Source: Archangium violaceum
Lineage (GTDB): Bacteria; Myxococcota; Myxococcia; Myxococcales; Myxococcaceae
Length of the DNA stretch: 64,000 nucleotides
Direction: 5' to 3'
Assembly (NCBI RefSeq): GCF_016859125.1
Contig: NZ_CP069338.1
Location: 6,015,501 to 6,079,500, forward strand
This document shows positions 1 through 6,170 of the stretch, one piece after another; within the stretch, counting starts at the first letter, position 1; every line of letters begins with the position of its first letter. The position numbers and the translations under genes are program-made. A model generated the notes under the pieces. That model did no database searches. It had not been told where the DNA came from and worked only from the letters and a program-made list of their open reading frames with translations.

Positions 1-3000
1 CGGCGGCGGAGTCCGTGAACGAGGATGGAGATGCCAACCCCGCGAACGGCGTGCAACTTCCGGTGCAGGCCACCGTCACCGGTGTCTCCGAAGGGACGCC
101 CGTGGAGTTCTGGCAGTCCGTCAACGGCCGGCTCGGTACGCCGGTGCGCGTGAGCACCCGGAGCGAGGGCGGACGGCTCGTGGCCGACTTCATCGCGGAC
201 CTCGCCGAAGGGGAGAACACCCTCCGGGCCTGCGTCCGTAATGTCGCGGGCCTCGAGTCGTGTCTGCTGAAGACGGTGAGGGTGGCGACGGGTCGCAAGG
301 CCTGCCGCATCATGTCCCCGCGCGACCATGCGGTTCGTGGCGAGGGGAACGACCCGCTCTCCGTCCAGGTGGAAGCGGAGTCGGGTCCTGTCACCGTCCG
401 GGCTTTCGAGTCCGGCGTGCCGACTCCGGTGGCGGAGGAGTCGGGGACGATCTCCGGAGGCACCGCCACGGTGTTCCTCTCCTTGGACGATGGAGAGTTC
501 GAGCTCATCGTGCAGTGCCCGGGGGGGGTGAGCCAGGCGGTCGCTGTTCGTCTGGACACCCAGCCCCCGGTGCTCTCGGCCCGGGTGCGCGGAGCTCCGG
601 ATGACTCCGGAACCCTGGACGGCAGCACGACGGATACCTCGGTGCTTCCGGGCACGCAGATCATCGTCGAGGCGTGGACCGAGCCTGAGAGCACGGTGAG
701 CGTGACGGGGTGTGCGCTGGCGGCGGGTGTCACCGCGAAGGCGGATGCCTTGGGGATGGCGCTGCTCCGCGAGGTGACGGTGCCTCGCTCCGGCACCTGC
801 GTGTTGACGTTGACGGCCACGGACGTGGCGGGCAACACCGCCACGTTGAAGAAGCCGTTGGTGCTGAACCTGGACCCGGGCGCCCTGGAGTTCGTCTCCC
901 CGGTGGCGGGTTCGACGCTCGGCCGTGACAGCGGCGAGGTGCAGATGGGCGGCGGGCTCGCCATGCCGGTCAAGGTGTCCCTGCCGGGCCGGGCTGGAGT
1001 TCTCCGGCTGCAGAGCGGAACGACGGTACTCAGGGAGGTCTCCGTCACCGCGGCCCAGACCGAGTACACGTTCGAGGAGGTCATCCTCTCCGAGGGGATC
1101 AACGTGCTGCGAGGTGAGTTGGTGGAGTCCGGTGGTGCCATCACCTGTGTCACGGGCCTCTTCGTCGTGAACACGGCTCCGGTGTCGGTGGTGCTCACGG
1201 CTCCTCAATCCGCGTCGGGGTCGGTCATCTACAACGTGGGCCAGGATCTCCAGCTGGACGTGCCCGGCATCCAGCGGCCCTTGAACTACAGCGTGACGAC
1301 CACCGCCACGCAGTACACGGTGGACATCTGTTCCGACGTCGAGCTGCTGACGGGCGCCATGCCCTGCCGGGACGGAGTGGGCTACACCCTGGTGTCCAAT
1401 GCGCCCCCGAATACGGCCCTCTTCACCTATCCCGAGGGGCGTTACTCGCTCTACGCCGTCCTCGACGATGGCGCGCTCACCACCTCTGAGCTGGTGGTGA
1501 TGACGGTGGATGGCCAGCGCCCGCGTGTGGTGTCGGTCCAGCTCGAGCATGACGAGCTGGGGGACCGCATCCTGAATTCGAACGAGCTGCCTTCCGGAGC
1601 GCCGGTGGTACAGGTCTCCACGACCGAGCTCGAGAACGGCAGCGTGGTGCAGGTCTTCAATCAGGTGAGCAAGTCCGTGCTGGGCTCGGCCCTCGTCGAG
1701 AACGGCCAGGCCCGTGTCGTCCTGGATGCGCTGGAGAGCGCACAGGACGTCACCCTCGAGCTCGCGGTGCGCCTGGTGGAGCAGTCTGGCAACACCAACA
1801 ACCTGGGAGCGGGCCGGCCGTTGGATCCACGCAATGATGCCGCCTTCTTCAACCTCCGGTTGGATCGCAAGCCTCCGGACATCGGCCTCCTGTCTCCCGT
1901 GAAGCTGAGCCTCGGGCCCGCGGATGACGCGGACCCGGCGACGCCTGGTTTCCAGCTCCTCGTCGCGTTCGACACCTCCGCGGACGTGGGACCGGACGGT
2001 GTGGCGATCGTCGCCACGCCAGCGCCTGCCTCCAGCGCTCCGCGGACCCGGACGGGCACGACCGTGTCGCAGATGTTCACGGTCGAATCGGGCGTCACGC
2101 GGTTCGAGCTCTCCGCCACGGATCTGCTGGGTAACGGCAATGTCGTGACGTTCGAGGTCTCCATGGACCTGGTGCCTCCGACGCTGGCCTTCACGCGACC
2201 CGTGGCGGGTAGCACCCATATCGGCTCGCTGATGACGGTGGAGCTTTCGGTGGATGGCGAGGAAGGCCGCGTGGTGGGCATCTACGCATGGCCCACCGCG
2301 GGGGCGCGGGAGAAGGTGGGCCAGGCCTCTGTCACACGTGAGGCGGATGGCTCGTTCCTCGCCCGGACCACCGTGACCCTGACGCCGGGCATCTACCAAC
2401 TCAGCGCGGAGTTGATGGATGCGGCGGGCAACCTCGCCACGGCGACGGTGGACAACGTGACCGTGGATGCCCCGGGGTGCCAGCTGCGCTTCATCGACCC
2501 GGCTGGCAGTCCCGTGCGCTTCCTGGCGCGTGACGATCAGAACACAGGTGTGCCCGGCCTGCAGTACACCCTGGTGGGAGAGGCGCCGGACTGCAAGGGG
2601 CTCGGCGTGAGCCTCTTCCGCGATGATACGGTCCCCGCCGAGCGCACCACGAGCGTGGACGCCGCGGGCCGCTTCTCCTTCCCGGTGACGCTCGCGGATG
2701 GCGAGACGGCGCGCTTCCGCGTGGAGATGACGGACAGCGTGGGCAATACGACGGTGGATCTGCTGGAGGCCTCGGCGGACATCTCTTCGCCCACCCTCTC
2801 CGTCACCCTGCCCAGGAAGGACTCCGCTGGGAAGCTCTTCCTGGTGGCCGCCTCCGACAACGTGAACGTCCTCAAGACGGTACCGGGTTATGTGGCGGAT
2901 CTGTGGGCGGACCAGGAAGGAGGACAGGTGCAGCTCCTCTTCGATGTGACGGGAGCGCAGGGCGGGCAGGTGCGGTTCTTCTACAACGGCTCCGAGGTGA

Positions 3001-4814
3001 GCCCCCTGGTGACTCCCTCCACGGACACCACGACGATCGATCGCACGGTGACGCTGCCGCACGACTCGTCCGGGACGTTGGAGATCCGCGTGAGCGATGC
3101 GTCCGGCAATCAGGTCTCGTACACGGCGCAGGTCACCGTGGACGTGGTTTCCCCCGCGGCCCCCATCGTCCGGCGTACACTCCCGCCCGCTCTCGTGCGG
3201 AGCGCCATCGTCGAAGTGCGGTGGGACCCCGTGGGCGATGATGGCCTCTCGCGCGTCGTCCAGGGCTACGACCTGCGCTGGACGACGAACGTCCTGGTGC
3301 CCGACGTCATCGCGGACAACGCCCAGTTCCACGACACGAGCAAGGTGAGGCAGGAGACCGGCAAGCTGCTGTCGTCCAGCACGCTCGCCTATGATTTGAA
3401 ACTGCCGCCGCTGGCGAGCTACTCCATCCAGGTGCGCGCCTGTGACGAAGTGGGCAACTACTCTCCCTTCCAGAAGGAGACGGCGCCCATCGCCAACTTC
3501 TGGCGGCGCGCCAGCCTGTCCAACCCCGCGGGCTCCGGTACGGGCAATGGCTTCGCCAAGTACATGGCTTCTGGGGAGGACCTGAACGGGGACGGCAAGG
3601 ACGACCTCGTGGTGGGAGCCTCGGACATCCAGCCGGGAGCGGTTTTCGTCTACTACGGCTCCGCGGACCCGGCGTCCGCCGTGCGTCAGGAGCTCGTTCC
3701 GCCGGATACGCTCACCCAGACGTATGGCGGCGATTTCTCGCTCGGAAACGTGGGGGACGAGGCTGGTGACGTCGTGGCCGATCTGGTGGTGGGCGCGCGG
3801 CGGTGGACGGGTGGGGGGTCGCTCGAGCGCGGGCGCGCCTTCCTCTACTTCGGACGCAAGGACCAGCAGTTGGACAAGACCCGTTACCTCGAGTTCCAAG
3901 GACCCTCGGGCATCGCGGCCAACTTCGGTGGCAGCACCCGCATCATCGACGACCTCGATGGGGATGGGTTGAAGGAGCTCGTCTTCAGCTCCTATGGCGA
4001 GGTGAAGACCTATCTGTTCTTCGGCCGTCCGGTCGCGGAGTGGCGCTCCCTGGGGAAGGACCCGGTCACGGGGAGCTCCTGCACGAGCACCACGGGGGCC
4101 TGCGTCATCCCCGCTTCGGCGGCGGATGTGACGTTCGTCGGGGACCCGGGGACGCCTTTCTTTGGCATGTATCGCGGCAACGTCACGTTGGGAGACCTCA
4201 ACGGGGACGGCGCTCCCGAGATGTGCGTGGCGGCCGCGCGGCAGGACATCAACAAGGTGTGGCTCTACTCCGGGAGCCGGCTGACGAAGGGCGTGACGCT
4301 CTCCACGGCGGCGACGGACATCCTCCAGCTCCTCCAGGACCCCCCGGATACGGGCACGAGCCTGAACGGTTTCGGCACCGAAGCGGTGGGCGGGAGGAAC
4401 CTCATCCGTGGTCCGGGGGTCGACTTCGTGGTGGCCAACCCCTTCAAACAGGCGGTGTACGTCTACCCGGATGGCGGGCCCACGGGCTTCACGACGGCGC
4501 GGCTGAGGATCTCCGGTGGCGTACGTTTTGGCAGCGGCCTGCGGGTGGCCGACTTCAATGGCGACGGGTTGCTGGACCTGCTCATCGGACAGAACCAGAC
4601 GACGAACAACTCGGCCTGGGTCTTCTACAACCAGGGCGGGACGCGCAACGAGTTCGACGCCGCCGTCCTGGGCGGCCTCATGCAGTCCCGCCTGACGTCG
4701 AGTACGGCCCTGGGCATCAGCATCGCGTCGGGCGACTTCAACGGCGACGGCCTGCCTGACGTGGCCGCGGGCGACAGCCAAAGCACTCCCGCGACGGTGG
4801 AAGTCTGGTATTGA
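1..4814 (+). CDS. Secreted Ig-like/FG-GAP repeat protein, 5' partial
   Basis: The frame is open to the left edge, so the N-terminus, including any signal peptide, is missing; about 1,600 residues are visible. Roughly the first 1,100 are serial beta-sandwich segments of the Ig-like type found in bacterial surface proteins (recurring 'D..GN' and 'VDAAGRFSF'-like turns). A fibronectin-III-like segment follows near residues 1050-1150. The last ~430 residues carry FG-GAP/VCBS blades with calcium-binding motifs (DLNGDGKDD, DLDGDGLKE, DLNGDGAPE, DFNGDGLLD, DFNGDGLPD), a beta-propeller seen in integrin-like extracellular proteins. An adhesive or matrix role is inferred. The stop lies only 9 bp before the next small gene, whose ribosome-binding site overlaps this stop, so the two are probably co-transcribed. 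The specific function is unknown. Confidence 0.85.
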   Translation, partial: AAESVNEDGDANPANGVQLPVQATVTGVSEGTPVEFWQSVNGRLGTPVRVSTRSEGGRLVADFIADLAEGENTLRACVRNVAGLESCLLKTVRVATGRKACRIMSPRDHAVRGEGNDPLSVQVEAESGPVTVRAFESGVPTPVAEESGTISGGTATVFLSLDDGEFELIVQCPGGVSQAVAVRLDTQPPVLSARVRGAPDDSGTLDGSTTDTSVLPGTQIIVEAWTEPESTVSVTGCALAAGVTAKADALGMALLREVTVPRSGTCVLTLTATDVAGNTATLKKPLVLNLDPGALEFVSPVAGSTLGRDSGEVQMGGGLAMPVKVSLPGRAGVLRLQSGTTVLREVSVTAAQTEYTFEEVILSEGINVLRGELVESGGAITCVTGLFVVNTAPVSVVLTAPQSASGSVIYNVGQDLQLDVPGIQRPLNYSVTTTATQYTVDICSDVELLTGAMPCRDGVGYTLVSNAPPNTALFTYPEGRYSLYAVLDDGALTTSELVVMTVDGQRPRVVSVQLEHDELGDRILNSNELPSGAPVVQVSTTELENGSVVQVFNQVSKSVLGSALVENGQARVVLDALESAQDVTLELAVRLVEQSGNTNNLGAGRPLDPRNDAAFFNLRLDRKPPDIGLLSPVKLSLGPADDADPATPGFQLLVAFDTSADVGPDGVAIVATPAPASSAPRTRTGTTVSQMFTVESGVTRFELSATDLLGNGNVVTFEVSMDLVPPTLAFTRPVAGSTHIGSLMTVELSVDGEEGRVVGIYAWPTAGAREKVGQASVTREADGSFLARTTVTLTPGIYQLSAELMDAAGNLATATVDNVTVDAPGCQLRFIDPAGSPVRFLARDDQNTGVPGLQYTLVGEAPDCKGLGVSLFRDDTVPAERTTSVDAAGRFSFPVTLADGETARFRVEMTDSVGNTTVDLLEASADISSPTLSVTLPRKDSAGKLFLVAASDNVNVLKTVPGYVADLWADQEGGQVQLLFDVTGAQGGQVRFFYNGSEVSPLVTPSTDTTTIDRTVTLPHDSSGTLEIRVSDASGNQVSYTAQVTVDVVSPAAPIVRRTLPPALVRSAIVEVRWDPVGDDGLSRVVQGYDLRWTTNVLVPDVIADNAQFHDTSKVRQETGKLLSSSTLAYDLKLPPLASYSIQVRACDEVGNYSPFQKETAPIANFWRRASLSNPAGSGTGNGFAKYMASGEDLNGDGKDDLVVGASDIQPGAVFVYYGSADPASAVRQELVPPDTLTQTYGGDFSLGNVGDEAGDVVADLVVGARRWTGGGSLERGRAFLYFGRKDQQLDKTRYLEFQGPSGIAANFGGSTRIIDDLDGDGLKELVFSSYGEVKTYLFFGRPVAEWRSLGKDPVTGSSCTSTTGACVIPASAADVTFVGDPGTPFFGMYRGNVTLGDLNGDGAPEMCVAAARQDINKVWLYSGSRLTKGVTLSTAATDILQLLQDPPDTGTSLNGFGTEAVGGRNLIRGPGVDFVVANPFKQAVYVYPDGGPTGFTTARLRISGGVRFGSGLRVADFNGDGLLDLLIGQNQTTNNSAWVFYNQGGTRNEFDAAVLGGLMQSRLTSSTALGISIASGDFNGDGLPDVAAGDSQSTPATVEVWY

Positions 4815-4823
4815 GGAGCCGCC

Positions 4824-4967
4824 ATGGAACGACCCAAGAAGCCATATCGCCGTCCCAAGGTGCGCTCGGTGAAGATCCTGGTTCCCGACCTCTTCACCCC
4901 GACCAACTGCGTACCGACCGAGTTCGATCCATGCGATGGCCTCCTCCCGAAATCGTCGGGCGCGTGA
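4824..4967 (+). CDS. 47-aa RiPP precursor-like peptide with lasso-type leader motif
   Basis: This short gene begins at an ATG 9 bp after the FG-GAP stop, preceded by a clean GAGGAG Shine-Dalgarno that overlaps that stop. The peptide begins with a basic stretch containing KKPYRRPKV; Tyr8, Pro11 and Val13 match the YxxPx(L/V) signature by which lasso-family leaders are bound by PqqD-like recognition proteins. The second half (from about residue 25) has two cysteines (29, 37), acidic residues Glu32, Asp34 and Asp38, and an SS pair near the C-terminus. The next two genes encode an HPr-kinase-like protein and an S24/S26-type peptidase, both families known next to such precursors. No B1/B2 protease or asparagine-synthetase-like cyclase gene lies downstream in the window. 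The leader call is fairly strong; the product type is not determined. Confidence 0.6.
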   Translation: MERPKKPYRRPKVRSVKILVPDLFTPTNCVPTEFDPCDGLLPKSSGA

Positions 4968-4975
4968 ATCGCTGA

Positions 4976-5746
4976 ATGGTCCGCCTGCGTCTGGGGGACT
5001 GGTGCATCCAGGTCGAGCCCTCACTCCTCGGCCTGGCCGCACCCCGGTGTGATGTGGAGCGCTTCCGGAGCGCATCGGAGGAGCCCCGGGCCCTGTCCGA
5101 GCTCCGCCTGGAGCGCGTCCCCACGCTGTCCACCGGGCAGCCCCTCAATCCCCGCTACCCGACGCTCGGCCGCTACCAGGTGGAGGGAGCTCTCATCCGC
5201 ATCGCCTGTACGCAGAGCGTGCTGGCAGCGGAGCTTGGGTTACGGGCCGCCTTCCTCCTGGCGACGCTCCGACAGGGCGGGGTGCTCCTCCACGCATCCA
5301 GCGTGGCCTTCGGTGGGAAGGCGCTCGTGGCCGTGGGGCCGAGTGGCGCGGGCAAGTCCACCTTCGCGCGCCTGGCGCGGCTCGCGGGCGGAGCGCTGCT
5401 GTCCGACGAGGTGGTGGCGCTGCTGCCGGATGGGCGGGTGCTCGGAACGCCCTTTCGCTCCGACGCTGACCTGGGGGGCACGGCCCGCGAGGCCCTGCTG
5501 GGCGGGCTCTTCTCGTTGGTGCACGCCTCCTCCGAGTCGCTCGAGCCGCTGGCCCCATCCTCCGCGGTGCCGCTGCTGCTCTCCCAGACCTTTCGCGCGC
5601 CCGAGGACGGACTCACCCGGGCCGAGCTGCTCCAGCGGGTGGCCGGGCTGGCCTCCCATTTCCCCTCGTATCGCTTCTCCTTCCGCAACGCTCCCGAAGC
5701 GGGCGGGTACTTGCGGCGCTGGTGCGAGGACCATGCGGCCCGCTGA
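4976..5746 (+). CDS. HPr kinase/phosphorylase-like protein (RiPP-associated type)
   Basis: The 256-residue protein has a P-loop GPSGAGKST at 121-129, preceded by the HASS motif (106-109) that marks the HprK-related kinase family. LLSDEVV (141-147) sits at the Walker-B position and a GTPFRSD turn follows at 157-163. True HprK phosphorylates Ser46 of HPr; the short stand-alone versions near lasso-type precursors are thought to phosphorylate the peptide, as PadeK does for paeninodin. There is no N-terminal HprK domain, consistent with that branch. The ATG lies 8 bp after the precursor stop, and the 3' end overlaps the next gene by 14 bp, so translation is probably coupled. The substrate is inferred from context only. 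Confidence 0.72.
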   Translation: MVRLRLGDWCIQVEPSLLGLAAPRCDVERFRSASEEPRALSELRLERVPTLSTGQPLNPRYPTLGRYQVEGALIRIACTQSVLAAELGLRAAFLLATLRQGGVLLHASSVAFGGKALVAVGPSGAGKSTFARLARLAGGALLSDEVVALLPDGRVLGTPFRSDADLGGTAREALLGGLFSLVHASSESLEPLAPSSAVPLLLSQTFRAPEDGLTRAELLQRVAGLASHFPSYRFSFRNAPEAGGYLRRWCEDHAAR

Positions 5747-6170
5747 GGTCCTCCGGCTGCTGGAGGCTCTTCCCGAGGGCCGCTCCCTCTGGCTCTCGGG
5801 GCTGGGCCGCAGCATGGTGCCTCTGCTCTGGCCGGGTGACGGCGTGCGTGTCCTGCGCTGCGGTGAGGACGCGCTGGCGGCGGGGGACATCGCCCTGGTG
5901 CTTCGCCAGGATGGACGGCTCTCGGCCCACGTGGTGGCGCGCACCGGCCCGCTGGAGACCCGGGCCTTCCTGGGCGCTTCGGATGAGCTCAAACGGGTGC
6001 TCGGCCGTGTCACGGCGGTGAAACGCGGGCGGCTCCAGCTTCCCGTGCCTCGTTCCTCCCGAAGTCTGCTCCTCTCCTCCCACCGTCTGCTCCGGTGGCT
6101 GTGGCGTCACGAGCAGGTTCGCGTGGCCTGGCGATCATTCAAGCGAGGGGTGGGCCGAAGCGCGGGGTGA
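5733..6170 (+). CDS. S24/S26-type (signal peptidase-like) peptidase
   Basis: A 145-residue protein beginning inside the 3' end of the kinase gene. It carries the signal-peptidase nucleophile box SGLGRSMVP with Ser27, then WPGDGVRV, a GDI turn at 51-53 and an AHVVAR segment near 65-70, in the order expected for small S24/S26 peptidases. The usual catalytic Lys is not obvious. No membrane anchor is predicted at the N-terminus, unlike export signal peptidase I. Proteins of this size recur beside HprK-like kinases and PqqD proteins in RiPP-like loci, so a role in processing the upstream 47-residue precursor is a reasonable inference but not shown. The C-terminal ~30 residues are strongly basic. 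Confidence 0.6.
   Translation: MRPAEVLRLLEALPEGRSLWLSGLGRSMVPLLWPGDGVRVLRCGEDALAAGDIALVLRQDGRLSAHVVARTGPLETRAFLGASDELKRVLGRVTAVKRGRLQLPVPRSSRSLLLSSHRLLRWLWRHEQVRVAWRSFKRGVGRSAG

Follow-up and report, generated by a model that had tools for sequence, protein, structure and literature searches.

The window analysed here, a stretch of 64,000 nucleotides from the 12.68 Mb, single-contig genome of Archangium violaceum (genome positions are prefixed G000:C1), opens within a gene for an FG-GAP/Ig-like surface lipoprotein, of which the C-terminal 1603 of about 1950 residues are encoded at positions 1 to 4814 on the plus strand. The start codon is located at about G000:C1:6014465, approximately 1.0 kb to the left of the window. 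The protein was matched above cut-off by the Pfam families FG-GAP (1e-20), FG-GAP_3 (1e-19), and Big_13 (6e-14), and its N-terminus has a lipoprotein-like signal, MHRAGWQWLLAVCALWVAGC, with a lipobox-like WVAGC (read in L005) as in the lipobox rule. A 99-amino acid protein of the PqqD family is encoded at G000:C1:6014127-6014426, ending 38 nt before the FG-GAP gene, and scored about 47.5 bits against the Pfam PqqD profile with its cut-off of 23.4 (match at G000:C1:6014253-6014408). An initial annotation had noted that no RRE was visible, which holds within the window but not beyond it, the PqqD/RRE gene ending 1075 nt to its left. All of the 21 PqqD members scanned matched Pfam PqqD, and the best PDB match of the PqqD profile was the lasso RRE TbiB1 (6.7e-8), with PqqD proteins also among the closest structures.

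The FG-GAP gene is followed by a gene for a 47-amino acid precursor-like peptide (4824 to 4967, plus strand), and a Shine-Dalgarno-like GAGGAG (4813 to 4818, plus strand) overlaps the TGA stop codon of the former (4812 to 4814), in agreement with the good ribosome-binding site described initially. The peptide, for which we draw on sequence, alignment, pN/pS, and a neighbor-gene control, contains KKPYRRPKV, in which Tyr8, Pro11, and Val13 were also read correctly at first and form a YxxPxV leader motif (Y8-R-R-P11-K-V13, 4845 to 4862, plus strand), and it has a two-cysteine core segment from Cys29 to Cys37 (4908 to 4934, plus strand). No hydrophobic signal-like stretch was found in the peptide. 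Its stop codon is separated by 8 nt from the gene for a 256-amino acid HprK-like kinase (4976 to 5746, plus strand), which contains both HASS and GPSGAGKST, with His106 at 5291 to 5293, the P-loop at 5336 to 5362, and Asp144-Glu145 at 5405 to 5410. The kinase gene overlaps by 14 nt the gene for a 145-amino acid S24/S26-like protease (5733 to 6170, plus strand), which was recognized by alignment from Ser27, His66, and Asp84 and has a G-x-SM (GRSM) motif. The tight packing and the motifs first reported were thus found again, and it was confirmed that the peptide, kinase, and S26 genes are real, packed, and conserved.

In an alignment of 27 peptides, here called A1, the only invariant columns were P11, Cys29, and Cys37; position 8 was Tyr in 25 peptides and Trp in 2, the YxxP motif being conserved, and no acidic residue was invariant. 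The C-terminal part was variable apart from the 2 cysteines and the leader was conserved, and the peptide thereby has the short length, conserved leader, and variable core of a precursor in a RiPP system with a discrete RRE. The pooled pN/pS was 0.44, estimated from 12 overlapping, non-independent pairs. Of the modification sites suggested initially, the 2 core cysteines were invariant (27/27), but the C-terminal Ser-Ser was not conserved in A1 and was rejected as a phosphosite. At least 2 core cysteines were present in 40 of 43 peptides in a wider set and fewer than 2 in the other 3, and only 1 of the 43 (in L218) ended in Ser, which the window's peptide does not. Most near relatives had 2 cysteines that enclose a loop of 3 to 9 residues, and 7 distant peptides (L116, L120, L144-L148) had 6 cysteines in the order C-C-CC-C-C, a core that may be likened to that of knottins. 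No core cysteine was found in L233 and L228 and only one in L220, which counts against a universal disulfide role.

The residues His106, Lys127, Asp144, and Glu145 of the kinase were invariant (25/25). Lasso kinases have a His-Lys-Asp-Asp motif (reviewed in PMC9266682), and in comparison with this motif, with the correspondence of residues judged by eye, the fourth residue was Glu145 in all 25 kinases. The kinase scored 35 bits (7.9e-9) against HprK_rel_A (TIGR04352) and 20 bits against HprK_rel_B (TIGR04355), below the curated cut-off of 200 bits in both cases. It aligned by hhalign with 8 HprK proteins of the phylum over 44 columns with a probability of 65% (E 6.3e-5), the kinase profile retrieved mainly generic P-loop proteins from the PDB, with HprK at E 0.37, and the single-sequence AlphaFold2 model had a mean pLDDT of 36.8. 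Elsewhere in the genome, at 1.57 Mb, another HprK is encoded that does exceed the Pfam cut-off.

In the alignment of the S26 proteins, S27 and H66 were each conserved in 28 of 31 sequences and D84 in all 31, and we take these to be the catalytic residues. S27 and H66 would provide the Ser-with-His pair of an S26 peptidase. The window's S26 ORF had no Pfam or NCBIfam match of its own at E 1, and no membrane-type or strongly hydrophobic stretch was found in the protein. A GNAT domain was fused to S26 in L094 (L094:8757-9719:-; 48.7 bits over a cut-off of 20.7), the only fusion that was run against Pfam, and such fusions were seen by eye in other relatives, including g5/g19 loci that lack the peptide. 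The S26 protein of the window has no GNAT domain.

Conservation of the gene cassette

We searched for the peptide, kinase, and S26 genes in 96 genomes of the family and read 33 kinase loci (L093-L124 and the window's own), with gene boundaries in the relatives set by a simple codon-model caller and by eye. A YxxP two-Cys peptide was located directly 3' of an FG-GAP homolog in 27 of the 33 loci, its start lying -16 to +22 nt from the FG-GAP stop and the 2 genes overlapping in 7 of the 27, and a PqqD gene was located 5' of the FG-GAP homolog in all 27, which places a PqqD-type RRE within the gene cluster, as in RiPP systems with a discrete RRE. The last 503 residues of the FG-GAP protein matched the long ORF before the peptide in 26 of 26 loci in relatives, with E values of about 1e-28 or better. 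The initial suggestion that the leader serves a non-lasso purpose, with the peptide coupled to an FG-GAP gene, gains from this, as an FG-GAP homolog precedes the peptide in every one of the 27 aligned loci. The kinase and then S26 were the next genes after the peptide in 23 of the 27; S26 preceded the kinase in L111, and in L116, L120, and L122 other genes were located between the peptide and the kinase, with no S26 thereafter. The 6 kinase loci without an adjoining peptide were L113, L114, L115, L117, L118, and L121. In 3 of these genomes (G094, G011, and G093) PqqD, a long FG-GAP-like ORF, and the peptide were found elsewhere in the genome, and the other 3 (G095, G092, and G091) yielded no peptide. 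PqqD, a long ORF judged by eye to be FG-GAP-like, and the peptide were also identified in L144, L145, L147, L148, and L152, and in L153 from another family. A search for related loci with the kinase alignment gave 6 distant loci, which were left out of the comparisons.

The peptide and the type-A kinase were present together in 33 of the 96 genomes, the peptide alone in 2 (G007 and G008), the kinase alone in 4 (G012, G091, G092, and G095), and neither in 57, in a count that ignores phylogeny. The sets for this co-occurrence Fisher test were compiled by hand, with the peptide match in G059 (2 internal stops) dropped and kinase matches with E values above 1e-20 counted as another type. At E 0.01 the A1 profile matched 36 of the 96 genomes, or 35 after setting aside a match with internal stops, and the peptide profile matched 38 of 145 genomes of the order, of which G059 (2 internal stops) is discounted. 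The peptide matches in G007 and G010 were the third-type peptides of L151 and L149, described below, which are not linked to FG-GAP. The peptide is thus conserved with the kinase, a point on which its reading as a precursor had been made to depend. For the trio as a whole the expected conservation held in part: the peptide and the kinase co-occur, but S26 matches were found in 81 of the 96 genomes (15 had none), far more than for the peptide, and S26 stays where the other 4 genes are absent, so that it is the loosest member.

As a control, we counted the neighbors of 824 genes in 62 loci that had been chosen for carrying a kinase or S26 gene. A YxxP-type peptide with at least 2 core cysteines was located directly 3' of 42 of the 47 genes for proteins of more than 900 amino acids and after only 2 other genes, and the adjacency of such peptides to long proteins is more than chance. 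In 6 of 6 loci from the g5/g19 genomes (L125-L130), PqqD, FG-GAP, the peptide, and the kinase were all without a match, and the flanks, with a minus-strand lipoprotein gene to the left and S26, EamA, and exonuclease genes to the right, were present. Another g19 genome (L102) contained the full cassette between flanks like these. This joint absence fits loss and gain alike. The EamA and exonuclease genes, which are kept when the other genes are missing, were for that reason set aside as cassette members.

Related arrangements in the genome and the phylum

A paralogous set of genes, here called cassette B, was identified 3.8 Mb away at G000:C1:9818292-9823503 (L164:8292-13503). It contains, all in one direction, genes for S26, PqqD, a 167-amino acid secreted protein, a 1021-amino acid secreted protein, a YEPPAV two-Cys peptide, and an HprK-like kinase. 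The S26 protein in this cassette matched Peptidase_S24 (28.4 bits over 23.3) and scored 19.4 bits against TIGR02754 (cut-off 63.25), and the 1021-amino acid protein ends in a PQQ_2 propeller (34.8 over 27.6). Among 21 B-type loci, 20 of them picked by a match to the kinase query in addition to the genome's own, kinase, PqqD, and peptide were present in 19, the large propeller protein in 18, and a recognizable S26 in 16; L183 had no kinase match and L181 had the kinase only. The B peptides were closely alike, most reading YxxPAILWEQPFVALAQ...C.IPG..EC.P. They were found by the pattern YxxP-x-[IVL]-x-W, and for that reason this motif is not independent evidence in cassette B.

Other peptide-like arrangements were also noted. 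In a third arrangement (L149-L151, from g3 genomes), the gene for a W-x-x-P peptide, with a C-C-CC-C-C core by eye, comes after that for a secreted protein similar to the one in cassette B, and an S26 gene on the other strand is oriented toward it. The genome's 3 PqqD matches correspond to the window's cassette, cassette B, and an apparent PQQ biosynthesis operon at G000:C1:11101082-11104170 (L165), in which PqqB, C, D, and E-like genes were recognized by eye and PqqD by Pfam. A radical SAM enzyme gene follows a 59-amino acid ORF at L243:5878-7385 (G000:C1:1975878-1977385), perhaps as an unrelated peptide-maturation pair. A lasso-like pair, consisting of a 41-amino acid ORF with YEPPVLTVMGKVEHLT and a B2 transglutaminase-like ORF, is located at G000:C1:5732859-5733830 (L166:5859-6830) and is possibly decayed, since no PF00733 match was found nearby.

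At a threshold of 1e-8, the kinase profile matched 122 of 195 genomes of the phylum, and 20 further loci were read, with long proteins judged by eye and no genes called in L231 and L235. A long secreted protein, peptide, and kinase were followed by a radical SAM gene in L218 and L233, with no PqqD seen, and L219 contained a B-like set with both PqqD and radical SAM. Propeller-like cassettes with no radical SAM gene seen within about 4 kb downstream were found in L220, L221, L223, L224, and L226. In L222, L230, and L236, which represent other families, the order was PqqD, radical SAM, YxxP peptide (..CK(T/G)..), and HprK-like kinase, without a propeller; L229 was like these, but with PqqD and S26 on the opposite strand. 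No complete set was present in L225 and L227, L228 had a peptide candidate without cysteine and no PqqD gene, the peptide in L237 adjoined a long gene on the opposite strand from the kinase, and neither peptide nor PqqD was seen in L232 and L234. When 6 of the radical SAM proteins were compared with NCBIfam, 5 matched many radical SAM/SPASM maturases, all below cut-off among the matches listed, and the protein in L233 had weak matches. In the genome itself, radical SAM matches with E values of 1e-10 or better were found at 1.98, 6.96, 9.92, 10.63, and 11.10 Mb, none of them closer to the cassette than 0.94 Mb. The neighborhoods of these 5 contained no cassette, one of them reading as the PQQ operon, and the genes called over about 20 kb to the left of the cassette included, by eye, no radical SAM gene. 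Given phylum loci with and without radical SAM or propeller genes, the window's cassette looks like a propeller-linked branch, free of radical SAM, of a wider PqqD-HprK peptide system.

A putative peptide maturation cassette

Judged from gene content and residue patterns, the locus looks like a conserved RiPP-like cassette of 5 genes that is not of the lasso type and in which the propeller protein is an unexpected member. The gene unit, the PqqD family, the leader motif with the invariant proline and cysteines, the P-loop core of the kinase, the Ser/His/Asp pattern, and the joint absence from 6 loci can all be read directly from the sequences. The peptide as a precursor and PqqD as its RRE appear well supported, and the initial proposal of a RiPP-type precursor with a YxxP leader beside an HprK-like enzyme and an S26-like protease has been strengthened by the PqqD/RRE gene just outside the window. 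We see about an even chance that the genes encode an RRE-guided maturation cassette for a probably phosphorylated peptide that acts with the surface propeller protein.

For such a cassette we infer a series of leader binding, phosphorylation, cleavage, export, and partnership with the propeller. PqqD would bind the YxxPxV leader and offer the C-terminal part, with its cysteines, to the HprK-like kinase for phosphorylation of a Ser, Thr, or Asp in that part, and the soluble S26-type protease would cut off the leader. The mature, disulfide-forming peptide would then be exported and may act on or in the co-translated FG-GAP (integrin-type β-propeller) lipoprotein at the cell surface. The presence of PqqD in 27 of 27 loci, the invariant proline and 2 cysteines, the close spacing of peptide and FG-GAP genes, the gene order in 23 of 27 loci, the joint absence, and the repetition of the same logic in cassette B argue for this reading. 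Against it, the kinase scored far below every curated cut-off, could be aligned with HprK solely around its P-loop, and carries Asp-Glu in place of the Asp-Asp reported for lasso kinases; the peptide does not have the C-terminal Ser used by known lasso kinases, and its modification is a prediction; 6 kinase loci had no adjoining peptide, S26 was present in many genomes without the peptide, and 3 of the 43 peptides had fewer than 2 core cysteines. No exporter clearly belonging to the cassette was seen linked to it.

The propeller could instead be the target of the system, with the peptide acting inside the cell as an adaptor or regulator whose disulfide or metal-binding tail controls FG-GAP folding or export and is switched by the kinase. 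The tight translational coupling of the peptide to the FG-GAP gene, a peptide without a signal-like stretch or a linked exporter, and the recurrence of the same logic with a different propeller family would all suit this role, but a PqqD-type leader is difficult to account for if there is no maturation step and the variable C-termini, with 6 cysteines in some genera, suggest a secreted disulfide-rich product, and we consider an adaptor quite unlikely. That these are conserved neighbors with no functional linkage and that the propeller is a bystander seems very unlikely: the EamA and exonuclease genes too keep their position next to S26 with or without the peptide, but the propeller adjoins the peptide even in loci whose kinase lies on a different contig (L144, L147, and L148) or several genes away (L116, L120, and L122), is missing together with it, and has its role taken in cassette B by another propeller.

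It is also unlikely, if less strongly so, that the cassette is a reduced radical SAM system in which an unlinked radical SAM/SPASM enzyme modifies the peptide, with the kinase and S26 as tailoring enzymes that stayed behind when the radical SAM gene moved away. Related kinase-peptide cassettes with radical SAM beside a long secreted protein (L218, L219, and L233, with PqqD only in L219), the sets in L222, L230, and L236, and the 5 matches in the genome, among which a partner in trans could be sought, speak for it; the distance of those matches, one in the apparent PQQ operon and 4 in neighborhoods without a cassette, and the propeller cassettes of other families with no radical SAM seen about 4 kb downstream (L221, L223, and L224) speak against. 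The lasso minicluster of the initial annotation, which would now require a cyclase and a B2 protease in trans, we regard as highly improbable. The YxxPxV leader, PqqD, and the HprK-like kinase are lasso-like features, YxxP being a characterized lasso RRE recognition sequence (PMC12710340), and a B2-like match just over cut-off (26.8 vs. 26 bits) is located 287 kb away. However, that match adjoins a YxxP precursor-like ORF of its own, PF13471 matched the genome only at 5.73 and 1.30 Mb and PF00733, for the asparagine-synthetase-like cyclase, only at 9.27 and 10.43 Mb, and A1 has 2 invariant cysteines and no invariant acidic residue. The lasso cluster was therefore rejected on the linkage of B2 and cyclase and on the peptide core, in which a C-terminal Ser is not conserved.

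Returning to a maturation cassette that acts with the propeller, a more specific and tentative reading, which we hold to be possible but doubtful, is that giant surface β-propellers are given a coupled, RRE-guided, kinase-modified, disulfide-rich peptide as a ligand or prosthetic subunit, in 2 versions in this genome (with FG-GAP and PQQ-type propellers) and with a six-Cys C-C-CC-C-C core in some genera. If so, the product of a RiPP-type pathway would be part of a cell-surface machine and not a released natural product, and RRE-guided peptide maturation would extend from antibiotics and cofactors to the surface proteins of probably social bacteria. The cassette also gives a handle on why kinase homologs adjoin PqqD and YxxP peptides without a cyclase. 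Such peptides are not rare (35 or 36 of the 96 family genomes), and the natural joint absences offer a comparison.

Comparison with known systems

The protease resembles S24/S26 peptidases such as the nickel-SOD maturation protease in its Ser/His/Asp pattern, and its paralog in cassette B matches Peptidase_S24, whereas the window's copy has no match of its own and relatives have GNAT fusions. With HPr kinase/phosphorylase the kinase shares a P-loop and an acidic pair that align by hhalign and a His before the P-loop that was matched by eye, but the alignment is confined to those 44 columns and the genome has its separate HprK; its best NCBIfam matches, HprK_rel_A and HprK_rel_B, likewise lie around the P-loop. 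The GeoRSP/SynChlorMet systems (TIGR04302, TIGR04248, and TIGR04249) have a PqqD-like chaperone (24.1 and 18 bits vs. 100), the kinases of L219 and L164 weakly matched SynChlorMet ScmC (22.5 and 19.4 bits vs. 125), and some relatives in the phylum contain radical SAM genes; unlike these systems, the window's cassette has no linked radical SAM/SPASM enzyme, and all scores were far below cut-off.

Among the titles and opening lines of abstracts listed in open-access searches, we saw no paper in which an HprK-like kinase and PqqD occur together with a propeller protein, and a search for SynChlorMet, GeoRSP, and ScmC gave unrelated papers; term searches of PMC7470986 and PMC12710340 gave no occurrence of "HPr" or "kinase". 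HprK homologs are described as phosphorylating RiPP precursors (PMC8498205, PMC9266682), lasso kinases acting on a C-terminal Ser (PMC8498205). A further likeness is to the lasso clusters with tailoring kinases (paeninodin PadeK, ThcoK, and SyanK), which also have a YxxP leader, a separate PqqD-type RRE, and an HprK homolog with conserved His, Lys, and acidic pair. The window's cassette differs from these in that neither a cyclase nor a B2 protease is linked to it, its peptide does not end in Ser, the cores contain cysteines, the operon includes a large propeller gene, and Asp-Glu stands where Asp-Asp is reported. It looks like a real peptide-maturation system, as yet unstudied, and not like a lasso-peptide cluster.
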